Part shown: positions 35,966 through 43,900 of the stretch, in pieces
Layout: each line of letters begins with the position of its first letter
How positions within the stretch are numbered: the stretch's first letter is position 1
Assembly: GCA_026983955.1 (NCBI GenBank)
Contig: JALSTB010000120.1
Span: 1 to 43,900 of the forward strand
From: Melioribacteraceae bacterium
Lineage (GTDB): Bacteria; Bacteroidota; Ignavibacteria; Ignavibacteriales; Melioribacteraceae
Length of the DNA stretch: 43,900 nucleotides
Reading direction: 5' to 3'
Program-made: the position numbers and the translations under genes
Notes under the pieces: generated by a model
The model's database searches: none
The model's input: only the letters and a program-made list of their open reading frames with translations
What the model was told of the DNA's origin: nothing

Positions 35966-37270
35966 ATGATGATAAAATTCTACAAGATACTTTCTCTGCT
36001 TTTATTTTCCATGATTGTAACGGTTTCCGGACAAAGAAAAATAGACATAAACAAGCTTCATTCTGATTACGTAAAAACCGGTAACAAGATAAAACGCCTT
36101 AGAGAATTAAATGGAAACTTAAAATCTTTTGCCGTCAAACACCCTTCCAAATATGATTATAAAAATTGGATAAAAATTCTTTATCAAATCGAATCGCTCT
36201 ACATTGATAACCCGGAAGCGGAAAAAATTGTAGGCGATGTTCTGAAAAATCACGAACACATTCCCGTAAAATTGTTATACGTTGGAATTGAAACAGCAAC
36301 TGCGGTATTTCCGGATAAATTCCACAAAATCATAAGCAAAATTTTCGAAACAACCCGGAACGCCAGTGTTTTTGTTATTTCAGCAACTTATTTAATTAGA
36401 AATAACTTTAAACTAAGAAATAACGAATTTTATCTGTTAAATATTGAAAAGAGATTCAAAAATTGGGAAAATATTCCCGAGTTATTTTTGTTTCATGAAT
36501 ATTTGCTAAAACCCGAAAAAAAGCGGTTGAAAGAAATACCCGATTTGGCGGAATTGTTTTCACATAAGTATTCAGCGGGCAAAACGATTATCTTTTCCCT
36601 ATTCAGAAAGGATAGGAATTATCCCGGGATTACAATAATACGTAAACCTGACGGCAAATTTTTAAGAGATAAAGACGGCAAACTTTTTTATGTAAAACAG
36701 CTCGGTTTGTCTTATGCTAATCTCCCGGGTTATTTACCGGACGGAAACACACCGGAAGGAATTTTTTCAATAGTAGGTTGGTACATCACACCTACCGGAT
36801 CTATTGGTCCCACACCCAATGTACTTACCCGTTTACCTTTTGAAATTGGTGTGCCGGAATTTTTTCATCAACAGGTTAGTGAAAAAAAATGGACTAAAGA
36901 AATTTACGGAAAATTACTTCCTCCGAGCTGGAGTAATTACCTGCCGGTTTATGAAACTTACTATGCAGGAAGAGCGGGCAGAAAGTTATTGATAATGCAC
37001 GGTTCTACAGACGATTTGGAATATTACAAAGACAAACCGTATTTCCCTTTAACTCCGACGCGCGGTTGCCTTTCAGCAAAGGAAATTTGGAACGAAACAA
37101 CGGGCAAGTGCATTGAAAGCGATCAAGCTAAACTAATGAATGCCTTTTTCTCAACCGGAACATTAAAAGGTTTTTTAATAGTTGTGAATATCGATGATCA
37201 AAAATCTCCCGTTACTCCTGAGGATGTTATTGAGAAAGTTTTGAAAGCCGAGGCGATGCAACGAAAATAA
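35966..37270 (+). CDS. L,D-transpeptidase-like (YkuD) protein
   Basis: The 434-residue protein has a signal peptide (MIKFYKILSLLLFSMIVTVSGQ); ATG at 35966 and 35969 are both possible. The C-terminal domain carries the YkuD pattern: IMHGS (His345), then PTRGCLSA (Cys368 as likely nucleophile), 23 residues apart. Upstream are substrate-side strands (GYLPDGNTPEGIFSIVGW). The family normally has SHGC or SRGC; TRGC is a mild variant. The N-terminal ~200 residues are helical and unrecognised. It would form 3-3 crosslinks or attach proteins to peptidoglycan. Confidence 0.75.
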   Translation: MMIKFYKILSLLLFSMIVTVSGQRKIDINKLHSDYVKTGNKIKRLRELNGNLKSFAVKHPSKYDYKNWIKILYQIESLYIDNPEAEKIVGDVLKNHEHIPVKLLYVGIETATAVFPDKFHKIISKIFETTRNASVFVISATYLIRNNFKLRNNEFYLLNIEKRFKNWENIPELFLFHEYLLKPEKKRLKEIPDLAELFSHKYSAGKTIIFSLFRKDRNYPGITIIRKPDGKFLRDKDGKLFYVKQLGLSYANLPGYLPDGNTPEGIFSIVGWYITPTGSIGPTPNVLTRLPFEIGVPEFFHQQVSEKKWTKEIYGKLLPPSWSNYLPVYETYYAGRAGRKLLIMHGSTDDLEYYKDKPYFPLTPTRGCLSAKEIWNETTGKCIESDQAKLMNAFFSTGTLKGFLIVVNIDDQKSPVTPEDVIEKVLKAEAMQRK

Positions 37271-38003: not shown

Positions 38004-39125
38004 TTATTTCAGTAAAACCATCTTCTTAATTTCACTGTACTTTCCGGCTTGAAGACGGTAAAAGTAAATTCCGTTTTTTAATCCGTTTGCGTTAAAATCA
38101 ATTTCGTGGGTACCGGCATCAAAACTTTTGTTAGTAAGTGTTAATACCTTCTCGCCGATAACATTATATATTGAAATTTTAACTTTTTCTTTTCTCATTA
38201 GTGAAAATTTTATTTTTGTACCCGGATTGAACGGATTGGGATAATTTTGAAATAATTTGAATTGTGCAGGCACCATTTTAATTATTACTTCACCGAAATA
38301 ACTAAACGAACCGTCAATATCAATTTGTTTAAGGCGGTATATAAAACTGTTCCCTCCCGTAACATTCTTATCGGTAAAAGTGTATGATTTAGGTGAATTA
38401 CTACTCCCGCTCCCTTCAACAAACCCGATTCGCAGCCATTCTTCATTATCTCCGTTTAACGTTGCTCTCTCTATTTCGAAGCCGTAATTATTAACTTCCG
38501 TTGCGGTTTTCCATTTCAACATTACCGAATTCTCTTGAGTCACCTTACCGCTGAAGCTGACCAATTCAACCGGCAACGGTACTTGACTTAATTCGGCTGG
38601 TATATCCTCTCTTACGCCGGTAATGTCATTTAAGTCCTCATCCTTAACCCGATAACCATGCATTAAATTATCAACCGGACCGTAATTCCACTTCACAGCA
38701 GCATTTACATCTGCAAGTCTATATACTAACGTTATCCTGACTATTTTTTGCCATGAACCGGTTAATGTTTTTCTTGTTGTTATACTGAATTTTGCGGAAT
38801 AAACAAAACTTAAAACTCCCGTGGTTTCGTTATATTCCATCGGACCGTAATTATAATTTTCTTCGTCGAAATAATGATCCGAATACTGCCAATCCCTCAA
38901 ATTGTCTCTGAAATCATCATCGAGCTTAACGGAATTTCCGTAGACATTAATCGATACATCTCCACTGTCGGAGAGAGCCTCCACATCGAAAACCAATGTG
39001 CCCTTGCCGACTTCCGGGGAATTGTAAGTGTTGCTCACATAAACCAAACGGCTGTTTACTTGAGCGATTAAAATCAACGAATTCATAATAAGGAAAATGA
39101 ACGCGGGCAGTAAAGTTTTCTTCAT
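38004..39125 (-). CDS. Secreted protein with type IX sorting domain
   Basis: The ATG at 39125 is chosen, with GGGAG upstream; the frame can also open at a TTG two codons earlier. The ~373-residue protein has a signal peptide (KKTLLPAFIFLIMNSLILIAQ). The first half (~20-190) is a beta-rich domain of unknown family. A second, FN3-like domain (PLPVELVSFSGKVTQENSVM, then KTATEVNNYGFEIER) is common in FCB secreted proteins. The end is a sorting domain (QNYPNPFNPGTKIKFSLM to SEIKKMVLLK). Surface or extracellular localisation by type IX secretion is expected; function is unknown. Confidence 0.85.
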   Translation of the reverse strand: MKKTLLPAFIFLIMNSLILIAQVNSRLVYVSNTYNSPEVGKGTLVFDVEALSDSGDVSINVYGNSVKLDDDFRDNLRDWQYSDHYFDEENYNYGPMEYNETTGVLSFVYSAKFSITTRKTLTGSWQKIVRITLVYRLADVNAAVKWNYGPVDNLMHGYRVKDEDLNDITGVREDIPAELSQVPLPVELVSFSGKVTQENSVMLKWKTATEVNNYGFEIERATLNGDNEEWLRIGFVEGSGSSNSPKSYTFTDKNVTGGNSFIYRLKQIDIDGSFSYFGEVIIKMVPAQFKLFQNYPNPFNPGTKIKFSLMRKEKVKISIYNVIGEKVLTLTNKSFDAGTHEIDFNANGLKNGIYFYRLQAGKYSEIKKMVLLK

Positions 39126-39383
39126 ATTCAACTCCCATTCTTTTGTTTAGTTGTTCATTTCCCCACCTCAATTTCACTTGTTTGAGTAGGTGAATTTTTT
39201 GCTTTTTTAAATTTGAAAAGCTGATATTTAGATAAGCGATATGGAATCATCGATTAAAGCAATTATTAATATGAAAAGCAACTTCCTCAAAAAAGTTTTT
39301 CTCAATTTTTTTTATTTAATTTTTAATTTATACTATATTTATTCTACTAATTATATTATCTAATTTATTCTTTTTATTAGAGT

Positions 39384-41486
39384 GTGGAATTACAAAAGTT
39401 AGAAATAAGATACCGCAATTTAATTTCCATTCTGAGGGATGAAAGATCCCCCCGCACTTCCCTTCTTTATTTAAATGATTTCCTCGGGATTCTTCTTTCT
39501 TTGGATGACGGTTTGATACTCGAAAGCTACTTCGTTGAATTTGTTCCGGAATTTATTAAACTCCTAAAACAATTCAATCTGACGGGGATATCACCGGAAC
39601 GGTTACAATCAATACTTTCCAATGCAAAAAGGATGCTTAAAATCGATTGCTTTGACGCCTACAAGTATGATTTGGCAGAAGCAATAAATGAATTCGAGCG
39701 CAAATATTTGATCATGAACAGAATACTTGACGGTGAAGAAGACCTCTATTTTACGGATGGTAGAACCGGAATATCATTTCCTGTTATCGAAAAACACCCG
39801 TTTAACGCAGAACAATTCGGCACAATCGAGTATGTTAACGTTCATATTCAGAAAGGAAATAAACTGAACAGCGATAATTTTCTGGTTATCCCGAGTCAAG
39901 AAAAACTTGAAAAGAAAATTCACAGCCAAATATTGACATCTTGGAAAATAGCCAAAGAATTTTGTTCAAAACGAATCAAAAAACTCGCTCCTTTTCACGA
40001 AATTATAATCAGCTTCTCGGAAAAATATGGTAACTATGTCGGCGAATCACTCGGCGTTGCGCTAACCCTTGGGTTCATTCAACAATTACACAATTTGTAT
40101 AATTTAACCATTACGGTTTCCATAAATAATGCAGTTTGTTTCACCGGGGGCTTGGATGAAAACGGCAATGTGAAACCGGTTTCTTCAAAAATTGCAGCAC
40201 AAAAAGTTGAAACCGTCTTTTATTCATGTAAAACGATTTTTGCCATTCCAAAAAAAGATGAAATAACCGCACGGGAAAAATTGGAGCGTTTGAAGAAAAA
40301 GCATCCACGGAGAAAACTTAAGTTAATAGCTATTGATGATTTGGACGATATTTTAAACAGACGAAATCTTATCAACTTGGATAAACAAAGTCTGGTTAAG
40401 CGTTCGGTAAAAGCATTACAAAGCCGGAAAATTACCGCAATTTTATCACTAATTCTTTTAAGTATAATTTTTTACAATGCACTAAGGTATTTTGATAACA
40501 ACCCCGTGATGTTTAACAGAAATGGAAATCTCCTTAATGTCGAAAATAAATACGGTAAAGTTTTGTTTACTAAAAAACTTAGCTTTTCAACACCAAGTTC
40601 ACATCAAAACCGGAAATTATTTGATATTAATAATGACGGTATTAATGAGGTAATATTGTGCGTTGAAAAATTGAAAGAAACATCTGAAGCTAACAAAAAC
40701 GGACGAATCGCTTGCTTTGATAATTCCGGAGATTTAATATGGGAATATATTTTAACAACTAAACTTTCCACACAGAAAGAAAATTTTCCAGAACAATATG
40801 TTATCAGATTAATTTTGGATATCGTAAAAGAGGATAATTTAAATGTTATTTACGCGGCGGCTCAAAACATAGTATATTACCCTAACATAATTTTCAGACT
40901 TGATGCCCGCACAGGTAAACGTTTGCCGGGTACGTTTCTTCATTCCGGAAGTATAGAAAGGGGCATTATCGGTGACTTTAACAAAGACGGTAAAAAAGAA
41001 CTCGTAGCGGCTGGCATAAACAATGGTTACGAAAGAGCAATTATGTTCTCAATTAATCTTGAAGAATTAAAAAAAGAGAGCCAAGGGTTGTCTACTCCTA
41101 ATTATTCATTCAAGAATTTTAATATCGCTTCTTTTAACGGATATTTACTCCTTCCTAAAACGGATTACAATAAATATCAAAGATTAAGATTTAACAATAT
41201 TCTCTACATAGCTTTAAATCCCAGAGATAGTAACATATATTTCTCTACTATCGAGGGTGCATATCCAACTGACAGTGTGGGTGTCAGTTATTCAATCGAC
41301 AGAAGTTTTACTTCACCCAAAGTAATTATTGGTGATGATTTTCAGGTAAAAAGGGATTCGCTTGTTGCGCAAGGCAATCTTAATCTTCCTTTCACAAATA
41401 CAAAGGAATACGAAAAAATACTGCTTAATCAGTTCGAGAAGTGGGAACCGGTTGCGAAAAAGTTCGTCAAAATAACCGGAAATTAA
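39384..41486 (+). CDS. Membrane-spanning Lon-like (S16) protease with FG-GAP-type outer domain
   Basis: The frame opens with GTG at 39384. The 700-residue protein has a helical N-terminal region (1-150), then an S16 Lon-protease-like domain at about 180-325: FHEIIISFSEKYGNYVGESLGVALTLG in two adjacent pieces, CFTGGLDENGNVKPV and SSKIAAQKV, then TIFAIPKKDE. Ser222 in GESLG and Lys269 in SSKIAA could be the catalytic Ser-Lys dyad, 47 apart (43 in E. coli Lon). No AAA+ ATPase domain is present. A membrane segment follows at ~349-366 (KITAILSLILLSIIFY). The outer ~330 residues include two FG-GAP/VCBS-like calcium loops (FDINNDGINEV near 413 and GDFNKDGKKELV near 530). No signal peptide is present, so the protease would be cytoplasmic and the propeller periplasmic. 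The lysine alignment is off by one residue, so activity is unproven. Confidence 0.7.
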   Translation: MELQKLEIRYRNLISILRDERSPRTSLLYLNDFLGILLSLDDGLILESYFVEFVPEFIKLLKQFNLTGISPERLQSILSNAKRMLKIDCFDAYKYDLAEAINEFERKYLIMNRILDGEEDLYFTDGRTGISFPVIEKHPFNAEQFGTIEYVNVHIQKGNKLNSDNFLVIPSQEKLEKKIHSQILTSWKIAKEFCSKRIKKLAPFHEIIISFSEKYGNYVGESLGVALTLGFIQQLHNLYNLTITVSINNAVCFTGGLDENGNVKPVSSKIAAQKVETVFYSCKTIFAIPKKDEITAREKLERLKKKHPRRKLKLIAIDDLDDILNRRNLINLDKQSLVKRSVKALQSRKITAILSLILLSIIFYNALRYFDNNPVMFNRNGNLLNVENKYGKVLFTKKLSFSTPSSHQNRKLFDINNDGINEVILCVEKLKETSEANKNGRIACFDNSGDLIWEYILTTKLSTQKENFPEQYVIRLILDIVKEDNLNVIYAAAQNIVYYPNIIFRLDARTGKRLPGTFLHSGSIERGIIGDFNKDGKKELVAAGINNGYERAIMFSINLEELKKESQGLSTPNYSFKNFNIASFNGYLLLPKTDYNKYQRLRFNNILYIALNPRDSNIYFSTIEGAYPTDSVGVSYSIDRSFTSPKVIIGDDFQVKRDSLVAQGNLNLPFTNTKEYEKILLNQFEKWEPVAKKFVKITGN

Positions 41487-41742
41487 TTTTATTATTTGCC
41501 ATCCCGCCTATTAAAATTAGATCGGACTTTTCTTCCATACTCCGCTCATTTTTCCCACAATATTATTTCATTACCGGCAACCCGATAGTAAATTATTTGA
41601 TTTTTTCTTGTTTTTTTGATTGTTATCACACTCATTTATTTGAAATTCACCATTTTGTAAATCGAATATAAAAAAATATTTTAAGAGTGAAATTTTCAGC
41701 CGGTTTTATGCTTTTTGAAAAATCTTTTGTTAAATTTTCGTA

Positions 41743-42732
41743 ATGAATATGGGTAATGACACCAAACAAAATCTGGAATTACTTACTTCCAACCCGAAGG
41801 ACAGGAAAGCCCTGAACCGTTTAATAAGTACATGCTTTTCCATAGCTCGGACTTATTTAAATATTAAATATTTTTCAAAAAACGATTCAAAATTAAAGTG
41901 GGTTGAAAGTATCGATGATTTGGCGATGGATTCGATTGTTCCCCTTTTTATTGTGAACGGGAACGGTAAACTTGGTATATTGTCGGCACTGGATAATTGG
42001 AACTCCTCCCTCGAAGATGAAGCCGATACTTTATTTTTTCTAAACCGCGTAGTTTGGAAAAGAGTTGAACAAACCGTCGTTAAATTAATAAAAACAAAAG
42101 ACCCTATTTTCGGTAAAATACATAAAAATATTTCCACTTGTGTTGCAACAAATCCGTTCAAGAAAATCAACTATCTGGGAAAAACACTAATTGTACGCGA
42201 TGATTTTATTGAAGTTACCGGTTTGATTATTACGGAGAGGGAATTTGAAAATCTGCCGGCTCACTTGTTTTCCAAGAAACAATTTAAATTATGCGACGGA
42301 ATTCTGAATTACATCGAAACCGAAACAGATTATTTTCCCGCTATCCCGATGAATGCTTTGGTCAGAAGGATTAAGTCACTTTATTTCGCTTCAAAAATTC
42401 AACAAAATCCCGAAAAATCCATTGACACGGTTCCCAATTATATTGACGATATTTTTAATATCTCAATGGATAAAATTAAAGATAAACTTTTCAAACATTA
42501 TCTCGGTTCGAAAAAATTAAACGAAGATGAATGCAACCTGATTTTGAAAACATTCGCAACAATTTCCGAAGAAATGAAAAACGGCGGATTAAATAACAGC
42601 TTATACGAATATATGCATTTAAATGCACCTTCTTTAACAAAAAAGGAATTTTACGATAATTATCACGGAATAGTTAATTATTTGTTAGGTGAATTGAAAA
42701 GACAAATTTATTTATTAATTGAAGAAAAATAA
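41743..42732 (+). CDS. Divergent sigma-70-like protein
   Basis: This 329-residue protein has no close family that can be named with confidence. Residues ~20-115 resemble sigma region 2: DRKALNRLISTCFSIARTYL, then SIDDLAMDSIVPLF, then FLNRVVWKRVEQTV, parallel to the ECF pattern of a helix, a DLVQE-type helix, and a melting helix. The helical region ~245-325 (KLNEDECNLILKTFATISEE) could hold a region 4-like fold. There is no signal peptide or membrane segment. It is 257 bases after the S16-like gene and 53 bases before the next gene, in the same direction. The sigma role is inference. Confidence 0.45.
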   Translation: MNMGNDTKQNLELLTSNPKDRKALNRLISTCFSIARTYLNIKYFSKNDSKLKWVESIDDLAMDSIVPLFIVNGNGKLGILSALDNWNSSLEDEADTLFFLNRVVWKRVEQTVVKLIKTKDPIFGKIHKNISTCVATNPFKKINYLGKTLIVRDDFIEVTGLIITEREFENLPAHLFSKKQFKLCDGILNYIETETDYFPAIPMNALVRRIKSLYFASKIQQNPEKSIDTVPNYIDDIFNISMDKIKDKLFKHYLGSKKLNEDECNLILKTFATISEEMKNGGLNNSLYEYMHLNAPSLTKKEFYDNYHGIVNYLLGELKRQIYLLIEEK

Positions 42733-42785
42733 TTTTTAAAAACCGGAGTTTTTGCTCTATTTAAGATGTGAAGAAAGGATTAACA

Positions 42786-43319
42786 ATGAACATTTCGGAA
42801 AAAGACATATTTAATTTTGTGTTTAGCCCCGGAAAACTGAGCAACGAGGTTAAAACTTATATAAATAATAATATTCAAGATTTTGAAGAAGAAATACATC
42901 TGTTTGAAAATATTCAATCCGATTTGAACCGGCCCGTACCGGATGAAATTATTTCGCAAATAGAAGACCGGATTTCAAATATTAACGGTAATAAGGTCAT
43001 CGAACTTTATAAAACCCCAACTCCGGCAAAAACGGAAAACAGACACCTTACTTTGGCTGCAGAAAGCGAACCCGGTTACAATCCGAACAACATATCGGTG
43101 GATACTTTTTGGGATAAAAACTCCAACTATATGGTAAAAGTAATAAACGCGGCTGAAGAGAAAAAATTAATAATTTTCGAAAATGGTAATTCCTTCATTG
43201 AAGATTTCACTATAAAAATCTATCCTTCCACCAAAACTTTTGAACATATAAGCAACGAGGAACCGGTGATCTTGGATAAAAATGAAAAAATTGAAAAGAT
43301 TGTGATAACAATTCACTGA
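42786..43319 (+). CDS. Small soluble protein, possible sigma antagonist
   Basis: The ATG at 42786 is chosen, with AAAGGA upstream; a GTG 18 bases earlier is in frame but lacks support. The 177-residue protein has a helical N-terminal part (ISEKDIFNFVFSPGKLSNEV, then YINNNIQDFEEEIHLFENIQ), which resembles the short helical domain of anti-sigma factors but has no zinc HxxxCxxC motif. The C-terminal ~70 residues look beta-rich (NYMVKVINAAEEKKLIIFEN). No membrane segment is present. Its position directly after the sigma-like gene suggests partnership. Function is unproven. Confidence 0.45.
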   Translation: MNISEKDIFNFVFSPGKLSNEVKTYINNNIQDFEEEIHLFENIQSDLNRPVPDEIISQIEDRISNINGNKVIELYKTPTPAKTENRHLTLAAESEPGYNPNNISVDTFWDKNSNYMVKVINAAEEKKLIIFENGNSFIEDFTIKIYPSTKTFEHISNEEPVILDKNEKIEKIVITIH

Positions 43320-43481
43320 TCCGAATTTTCAATTATCCATTTCCTGTCAGCCGTTTCGAATAAATTCGATATAATAATTTCATACTCATTTATTATTTCC
43401 CTTGTTGTTAAAATCGCTTCTTCACAATGTGGTTATGGTTTACCAGAGTAAAACTTGTTTCATGAGCACTACTATTAAAGT

Positions 43482-43695
43482 TTGTCATGCTGAACTTGAT
43501 TCAATATCTCTTACTTGTCATGCTGAACTTGTTTCAGCATCTGAATCTGCCTTTTTATTTCCCCCTTTCGCTGAATAACTCGGAACGTAAATCCGTTCTT
43601 TTTAGATCCCGAATCAAGTCCGGGATGACAGTACAAAAAACGTCACGAAAAGACTTGTCATGCTGAACTTGTTTCAGCATCTGAATCTGCCTTTT
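43482..43695. repeat. Cluster of TGTCATGCTGAA-type hairpin repeats
   Basis: A 43-base sequence starting ACTTGTCATGCTGAACTTG is present identically at 43513-43555 and 43653-43695; each has the stem TGCTGAA/TTCAGCA with a 5-base loop. A degenerate copy begins at 43482 (TGTCATGCTGAACTTGATTC). A related unit in opposite orientation has ATCCCG (43606-43611) pairing with CGGGAT (43621-43626), then GACA. Repeats of this style occur between genes throughout many bacterial genomes (REP-like). Confidence 0.8.
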
Positions 43696-43849: not shown

Positions 43850-43900
43850 TTTTGTCTTTTGTTCCGCTTTTAAGTTCTTTCTTTATTTAAAATCAATGTG

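Follow-up and report, generated by a model that had tools for sequence, protein, structure and literature searches.

Can a bacterium combine the sensor and the protease of an anti-sigma circuit in a single membrane protein? This question is raised by three co-directional open reading frames (ORFs), here called P1, P2 and P3, which are the last long plus-strand ORFs in a 43,900-nucleotide stretch of DNA (the window; contig JALSTB010000120.1, positions 1 to 43,900) from a Melioribacteraceae bacterium (assembly GCA_026983955.1). The original prediction, made from the sequence without database searches, read them as a transmembrane (TM) S16 protease, a divergent sigma-like protein and a small soluble partner, which the protease degrades upon an external signal. 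The three ORFs are borne out at the following positions.

39384-41486, plus strand: P1, predicted membrane receptor-protease of 700 amino acids, with an N-terminal helical part, an S16 domain, a TM helix and an outer FG-GAP-like domain
41743-42732, plus strand: P2, sigma-like protein of 329 amino acids
42768-43319, plus strand: P3, soluble anti-sigma-like protein; 183 amino acids in the longest frame (from GTG 42768), probable start at ATG 42786

Here we show that P1, P2 and P3 are a real, conserved signalling module, which in its layout is a membrane counterpart of the CalpL-CalpT-CalpS system of type III CRISPR. The strongest evidence is the presence of the P1-type outer domain on a zinc anti-sigma domain right after P2 in other genomes, together with a conserved motif in the linker of P3. 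It is probable that P1 cuts P3 to free P2; the sensing, the cutting and its site, the binding of P3 to P2 and the action of P2 as a sigma factor are what we infer in this scheme.

The outer domain of P1 recurs on other proteins beside P2

The TM helix and outer domain of P1 also occur without S16, in 23 rows of our collection of relatives, where the outer domain is found on anti-sigma and on HTH-like (helix-turn-helix) domains. In 12 of these rows (11 distinct proteins), the N-terminus carries HxxxCxxC, which we take to be the zinc anti-sigma signature, and is fused to the TM helix and outer domain. All 11 distinct proteins are encoded directly after P2, which is incomplete in one locus (L245). 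Because of these outer-domain swaps beside P2, we assign P1, P2 and P3 to one pathway, and we regard this as the strongest argument for it. Four further rows, from Aminicenantes and Acidobacteria, have the outer domain behind an N-terminal HTH-like stretch, with HTH_17 matching at E 1.1e-4 in L243 and MerR below threshold in L236 and in one scanned copy from L242. The remaining rows are fragments or other proteins. The HTH-like fusions, possibly membrane one-component regulators, lie at these positions.

L236, 5878-7179: HTH-like/outer-domain fusion
L242, 5677-8325: HTH-like/outer-domain fusion
L243, 5851-7197: HTH-like/outer-domain fusion

Since it is found on S16, HxxxCxxC and HTH-like partners, we read the outer domain as a movable sensor. 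Its coupling to P2 would run by one of two routes, a fused anti-sigma domain or a protease working with a separate anti-sigma protein.

A different exchange is seen in three loci in which P2 carries an N-terminal response regulator (RR), with a HisKA_2 kinase gene just upstream. The P3 partners of these RR-P2 proteins are short or altered, and the loci represent a PhyR-like variant of the P2-P3 pair.

L097, 8848-13041: response-regulator-P2 locus
L213, 5270-8737: response-regulator-P2 locus
L214, 3463-7733: response-regulator-P2 locus

Co-occurrence and gene order

Among 116 related genomes, P1 was found in 40, P2 in 41, P3 in 34 and all three in 29, so the predicted co-occurrence of the genes holds. 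The pairwise overlaps (P1-P2 32, P2-P3 31, P1-P3 30) have Fisher p values below 3e-13, in tests that ignore the shared ancestry of the genomes. In 8 of the 40 genomes with P1, the matches miss the S16 catalytic region. When P1 is restricted to matches covering S16, it is present in 32 genomes, of which 28 have P2, 27 have P3 and 26 have both; conversely, 27 of the 34 genomes with P3 contain an S16-type P1. The genes are also neighbours. In 40 of 50 loci, P3 is one of the two ORFs that follow P2, with a gap no larger than 214 bp, and P1 linkage is looser than that between P2 and P3. Elsewhere in the phylum, other families have P2 first, then a small anti-sigma-type gene at the P3 position, and P1 last (L167, L172-L176); the P3 profile does not match this middle gene in L174 or L176. 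Across the phylum, S16-type and fused P1 relatives occur in 48 of 395 genomes and P2 in 38 of 296. Given the co-occurrence and order across genomes, a chance cluster was dropped as an explanation.

The organisms that carry P1 relatives are, among the matches listed (at least 18 loci), Ignavibacteriales and other Bacteroidota. Farther matches, often partial, come from Zixiibacteriota, Aminicenantes, Acidobacteria, Gemmatimonadetes and others, again among the matches listed.

In one genome (G005), a single P2-P3 pair has four full-length P1 genes nearby, all in the same region (L094, L095, C24). In some genomes, several sensors may feed one sigma-like factor. An IS200-like transposase gene lies among the four P1 paralogues. 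Elsewhere, copies of P1 or P2 are broken by stops or frameshifts (L110, L119, L126, L132), which suggests loss in some lineages or assembly errors.

In the window, P1 and P2 are separated by 256 bp, one less than originally given, and a scan of this gap saw no terminator-like site. The start of P3 is more likely ATG 42786 than the upstream GTG, because many aligned relatives begin at this position (MNISERDIF, MDITEKDIF) and AAAGGA stands immediately 5' of the ATG.

P1 is a predicted receptor-protease

P1 had been described as a cytoplasmic Lon-like domain joined by one membrane helix to a periplasmic FG-GAP-type domain. This architecture was recovered by a family profile, by charge bias and by weak FG-GAP matches.

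39831..40373, plus strand: S16 (Lon-type) domain, about residues 150-330, from the family profile against LonB structure 1z0e
40047..40049, plus strand: codon of S222, presumed catalytic serine (GESLG), invariant in the P1 family
40203..40205, plus strand: codon of K274, presumed catalytic lysine, aligned to the Lys of LonB and invariant
40428..40484, plus strand: membrane helix, residues 349-367, hydropathy maximum 1.94
40500..41477, plus strand: outer (extracytoplasmic) FG-GAP-like domain, putative sensor, about residues 373-698

A 21-row P1 family profile matches structures of the Archaeoglobus fulgidus LonB protease domain at E 4.5e-7 over profile positions 175-322. In this alignment S222 and K274 fall on the motif serine and lysine columns of LonB, which we take to be its catalytic residues. 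Both are invariant in 21 of 21 rows of the P1 alignment. Wherever a row covers both positions the pair is kept, in 53 of 53 rows (51 of 51 distinct proteins); five truncated, split or partly aligned rows were left out of this count. P1 on its own is a poor query: S16 was not significant in Pfam and NCBIfam scans, which gave a weak LonB match (E 0.051), and phmmer against the PDB gave no match. With the family profile, the S16 identity of P1 is firm, and proteolytic activity is predicted. No AAA+ ATPase family appeared among the Pfam matches of P1 at E up to 1, and the reading of P1 as a classical ATP-dependent Lon was dropped for want of this domain. A SAVED domain was likewise unmatched in P1 by Pfam, NCBIfam and PADLOC.

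P1 contains a single strong hydrophobic segment (349-367), with five K/R residues before it and two after. The segment is the strongest one in 20 of 21 relatives; in the exception (L098), it ranks second to an N-terminal segment, perhaps owing to a wrong start. As there are more K/R residues before the segment than after it, the S16 side is predicted to be cytoplasmic and the last ~330 residues to lie outside. FG-GAP matches of this outer part in Pfam are weak in P1 and above the cut-off in some relatives.

P3 resembles an anti-sigma factor and carries a conserved linker motif

For P3, an anti-sigma-like helical N-terminus had been proposed, and the modelled protein indeed begins with four helices.

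42786..42989, plus strand: anti-sigma-type four-helix domain (model; ChrR row; HxxxCxxC in some relatives)
43053..43067, plus strand: LAAES linker motif, candidate S16 cleavage site (A98 conserved; linker of low pLDDT)
43083..43316, plus strand: C-terminal beta domain, possible protease-docking domain (top VIA-align row CalpT10)

The model has a predicted local distance difference test score (pLDDT) of 88.8 and consists of helices 11-19, 26-34, 36-53 and 59-72, followed by a strand, a loose linker and the beta domain. Confidence is low in the linker, with pLDDT 61 in block 91-100 and 71 in block 101-110. There is no helix beyond the four of the N-domain, and the window P3 is thus not a transmembrane anti-sigma factor. 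We compared the model with 995 PDB chains using VIA-align, the Calp lead having been noted before that comparison. CalpT10, from the CalpL/T10 complex, heads the rows, with residues 106-183 aligned (8b0u_C, Z 6.1, 3.5 Å over 68 of 76), and the anti-sigma factor ChrR comes fourth, with residues 4-74 aligned (2z2s_F, Z 5.6, root-mean-square deviation (rmsd) 10.6 over 69). Better evidence than these low Z values is the HxxxCxxC motif found in the matching helix of genes at the P3 position in L129, L167, L174 (two) and L176; Pfam zf-HC2 matches P3 relatives below threshold. The anti-sigma identity of P3 has good support, and sigma binding and inhibition are predicted.

In 33 P3 proteins, the stretch ~83-112 is variable apart from L-A-A-x-S/T. 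Of the 33, 30 have L, F or Y at position 96 and 26 have Ala at position 97. Position 98 is Ala in 30, Ser in two and deleted in one, and position 100 is Ser or Thr in 29. The second Ala is also the sole invariant residue in 12 distant proteins at the P3 position (15-30% identity to the first), six of which are matched by the P3 profile and six placed by position. The deletion is found in L097, beside the HisKA_2 kinase and RR-P2 fusion, and the second kinase locus, L214, likewise has no LAA-x-S/T. The motif is thus missing from both kinase-linked P3 proteins that keep a C-domain; at the third kinase locus, L213, P3 consists of the helical domain only. Ser/Lys proteases often favour Ala before the cut, and we take LAA-x-S/T for a probable cut site.

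P2 is probably a sigma factor

The sigma-like reading of P2 stood in part: its predicted N-terminal fold is of the sigma region-2 type, and significant sequence matches to sigma factors did not appear.

41749..42102, plus strand: sigma region-2-like domain of P2, residues 3-120 (VIA-align rows to sigma structures)

When the predicted model (pLDDT 89.5) was compared with 983 chains in VIA-align, 32 of the first 35 rows were titled sigma factors or sigma-containing complexes, the aligned chain being taken as the sigma subunit from chain and length. Three abbreviations in these titles presumably stand for Bacillus subtilis sigma-D, -B and -H. Ten sigma rows are confined to ~residues 3-148 at 2.7-3.9 Å. 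Among the matches are pro-sigmaK (8vjl_B, Z 8.1, 3.3 Å over 94), sigmaS (5ipl_F, Z 7.3, 2.9 Å over 90) and the SigE N-domain (8b3z_A, Z 6.7, 2.7 Å over 78), at Z values that mostly sit below the VIA-align caution level for helical folds. The unrelated rows 3les and 3lmd cover the same range at Z ~5, and residues ~137-329 have no clear structural match. Neither P2 nor P3 had a match at E <= 0.001 in Foldseek alone. Sigma families, PF04542 included, were unmatched in Pfam (the window P2 and nine other P2 proteins), NCBIfam and PADLOC, and an hmmsearch of the P2 family against the PDB matched no sigma factor. Because the sequence gives no significant support, the sigma reading rests on the predicted fold and on the partner. 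P2 is probably a sigma factor, and among the assignments within the module this one is the least supported.

Proposed mechanism and alternatives

In the mechanism that we propose, the outer FG-GAP-like domain of P1 would sense a signal outside the inner membrane. The signal would pass through the TM helix and render the cytoplasmic S16 Ser/Lys domain active, perhaps by oligomerisation. S16 would then cut P3 once, in the linker between the anti-sigma and beta domains, at or next to LAA-x-S/T, with the beta domain probably docking P3 on the protease. If proteolysis takes place as suggested, one cut within the linker is a better fit than the degradation of P3 first proposed. The cut anti-sigma fragment would be removed or lose its grip, and P2 could then bind RNA polymerase and turn on its genes. 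The interpretation originally given to the locus is supported overall. Neither of the two outcomes named beforehand as refuting it was observed: the predicted model of P2 resembles part of a sigma factor, and the three genes lie together or co-occur in relatives. The zinc anti-sigma motifs, the fused outer domain after P2 and the conserved linker motif of P3 are independent evidence in the same direction; proteolysis, binding and transcription are what we infer from them.

Several observations weigh against this mechanism and the assignments behind it. Sigma region 4 was not identified in P2, and rows that cover the whole protein have rmsd values of ~14-20 Å. In hhalign tests, P2 alignments of 34 and 58 rows were compared with 31 sigma sequences from 13 genomes. 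Against all 31, P2 was not significant (E 0.32, with 20 shuffles reaching down to 0.092, and E 0.23). Its N-domain, at E 0.12 where the lowest of 30 shuffles gave 0.16, was not significant either. Against six extracytoplasmic function (ECF) sequences, E values of 0.055, 0.076 and 0.047 came from short stretches without a shuffle control; the matches at 0.055 and 0.047 span 22 and 18 columns. As for P3, the protein of the window has no zinc ligands or HxxxCxxC, its CalpT10 row is tied with unrelated beta sandwiches (Siah1, SPOP) below the caution level of the tool, and sequence comparison from P3 did not reach CalpT. P1 lies near P2 (same strand, within ~3 genes) in 20 of 50 loci, some of them at contig ends. 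Lastly, three genomes (G004, G103 with LSAKT, and G110) have a motif-bearing P3 and no detected S16-type P1, and in G076 P1 is seen only as a fragment at a contig edge.

Two other explanations draw on part of this evidence. P2 could be a sigma mimic in the manner of PhyR-NepR, so that P2 and a true sigma factor encoded elsewhere compete for P3, and proteolysis of P3 or phosphorylation of REC-P2 shifts the balance. The three P2 homologues with a response-regulator domain and an upstream HisKA_2 kinase speak for such an arrangement, which recalls PhyR and its kinases, as does the lack of sigma sequence signatures in P2. However, in the loci scanned no further sigma gene was seen next to the module (three sigma matches in 1301 ORFs, the nearest 3.0 kb from P2), a sigma gene followed by a zinc anti-sigma gene is the usual order, and the domain order of PhyR is opposite to that of the RR-P2 fusions. 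We therefore regard a sigma mimic as unlikely.

If, on the other hand, P1 does not cut P3, S16 would act on other proteins or as a scaffold, LAA would be a binding site and P3 would be inactivated otherwise. Such an uncoupling could accommodate the several P1 genes per P2 in some genomes (four full-length P1 genes to one P2 match in G005), the loose linkage of P1 and the motif kept in the three genomes without a detected S16-type P1. It sits poorly with the catalytic pair conserved in every distinct protein that covers it, with the loss of the motif from the two kinase-linked P3 proteins that keep a C-domain and with the S16-type P1 found in most genomes that have P3, and we consider it quite unlikely. 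Cutting of P3 by P1 is the reading that we prefer.

A wider reading joins these points, and we offer it tentatively, as a serious possibility. The module would belong to a class of outside-in signalling in which a one-protein receptor-protease of the inner membrane cuts a soluble anti-sigma factor. In some genomes, several receptors would serve one sigma/anti-sigma pair, and the outer domain would have moved among anti-sigma, protease and DNA-binding domains. Calp would be a relative with SAVED in place of the sensor, and P2 a sigma family unrecognised by sequence.

Comparison with known systems

Two papers on type III CRISPR describe CalpL, a SAVED-Lon protein, which binds cyclic tetra-adenylate (cA4) and then cuts the anti-sigma factor CalpT; the products are CalpT10 and CalpT23, the latter remaining on the sigma factor (PMC11417357, PMC12751052). 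CalpL cutting CalpT, as described there, shows that the original premise, according to which S16 proteases do not cut anti-sigma factors, was wrong (PMC11417357, PMC12751052). The two systems share an S16-type protease, a separate anti-sigma protein and a sigma factor, which is of the ECF type in Calp. The P3 C-domain may also resemble CalpT10, from a predicted-structure row of low Z that is tied with others. In contrast, the input of P1 is an outer FG-GAP-like domain acting through a TM helix, whereas that of CalpL is SAVED binding cA4, and no match of P2 to ECF sigma factor sequences was significant.

In a review of regulated proteolysis (PMC7593790), Lon is given as an S16 protease that depends on ATP, and anti-sigma factors come under site-1/site-2 cascades. 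As in RseA/RsiW-type pairs, the sigma-like gene adjoins an anti-sigma-type gene, and an external signal with proteolytic release is proposed here. The fused anti-sigma-TM-outer-domain relatives show the RseA/RsiW-type layout itself, whereas the window has a soluble anti-sigma protein and a protease that bears the sensor. In established membrane pathways of anti-sigma proteolysis, cutting is left to separate proteases, and the membrane holds sensor and anti-sigma factor together; in P1, sensor and protease appear to be one protein.

In the type III-E CRISPR system, Csx29 cuts Csx30, an inhibitor of CASP-sigma (PMC10028731). Craspase/CASP thus also has a dedicated protease for a sigma-factor inhibitor, with cutting proposed in our case, but its protease is an RNA-activated CHAT protein and its domains are unrelated to P1-P3. 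The likeness to PhyR-NepR-EcfG comes from the three RR-P2 fusions with an adjoining HisKA_2 kinase gene and is limited to those variant loci, and no kinase gene was seen beside the window module. With LonA/LonB, P1 shares S16 homology and the Ser/Lys pair, but it has no AAA+ match and has a single TM helix and an outer sensor domain.

Among open PMC papers, we found no description of a receptor-protease of this layout for sigma factors, the nearest being the CRISPR systems Calp and CASP. If our reading is true, the module adds a receptor type to bacterial signalling, is likely a housekeeping relative of the CRISPR Calp system, and offers a possible unrecognised sigma family as well as a testable cut motif. 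In its swaps between anti-sigma, protease and HTH-like partners, the outer domain provides a natural record of circuit rewiring.

Neighbouring genes and possible output

Next to P1 in the window, 38004-39131 (minus strand) encodes a protein whose C-terminus carries a type IX secretion signal. Across loci, type IX secretion tails occur in 17 of 88 genes adjoining the module and in 18 of 288 genes three or more genes away (odds ratio 3.6, p 6e-4; second neighbours 6 of 71), in a test that was unplanned and on loci related by descent. Type IX secretion cargo as the output of the module is a lead only. No shared promoter-like dyad stood out upstream of P2, where the best, T-rich candidate reached 12 of 36 (at most 11 in shuffles), or upstream of P1, where the best, also T-rich, reached 6 of 21 (at most 6 in shuffles). 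A role in anti-phage defence was set aside, as eight proteins gave no PADLOC match and the neighbours are mixed.

Further upstream, 35966-37270 (plus strand) encodes a 434-amino-acid protein that is unmatched in Pfam and has a signal-like N-terminus. Its HG...TRGC stretch resembles what we take to be an L,D-transpeptidase active site. Downstream of P3, the view extends to the end of the contig at 43900. The stretch 43480-43695 contains a 43-nucleotide intergenic repeat unit, in two exact copies and one at 65%, and the contig may break at such repeats.

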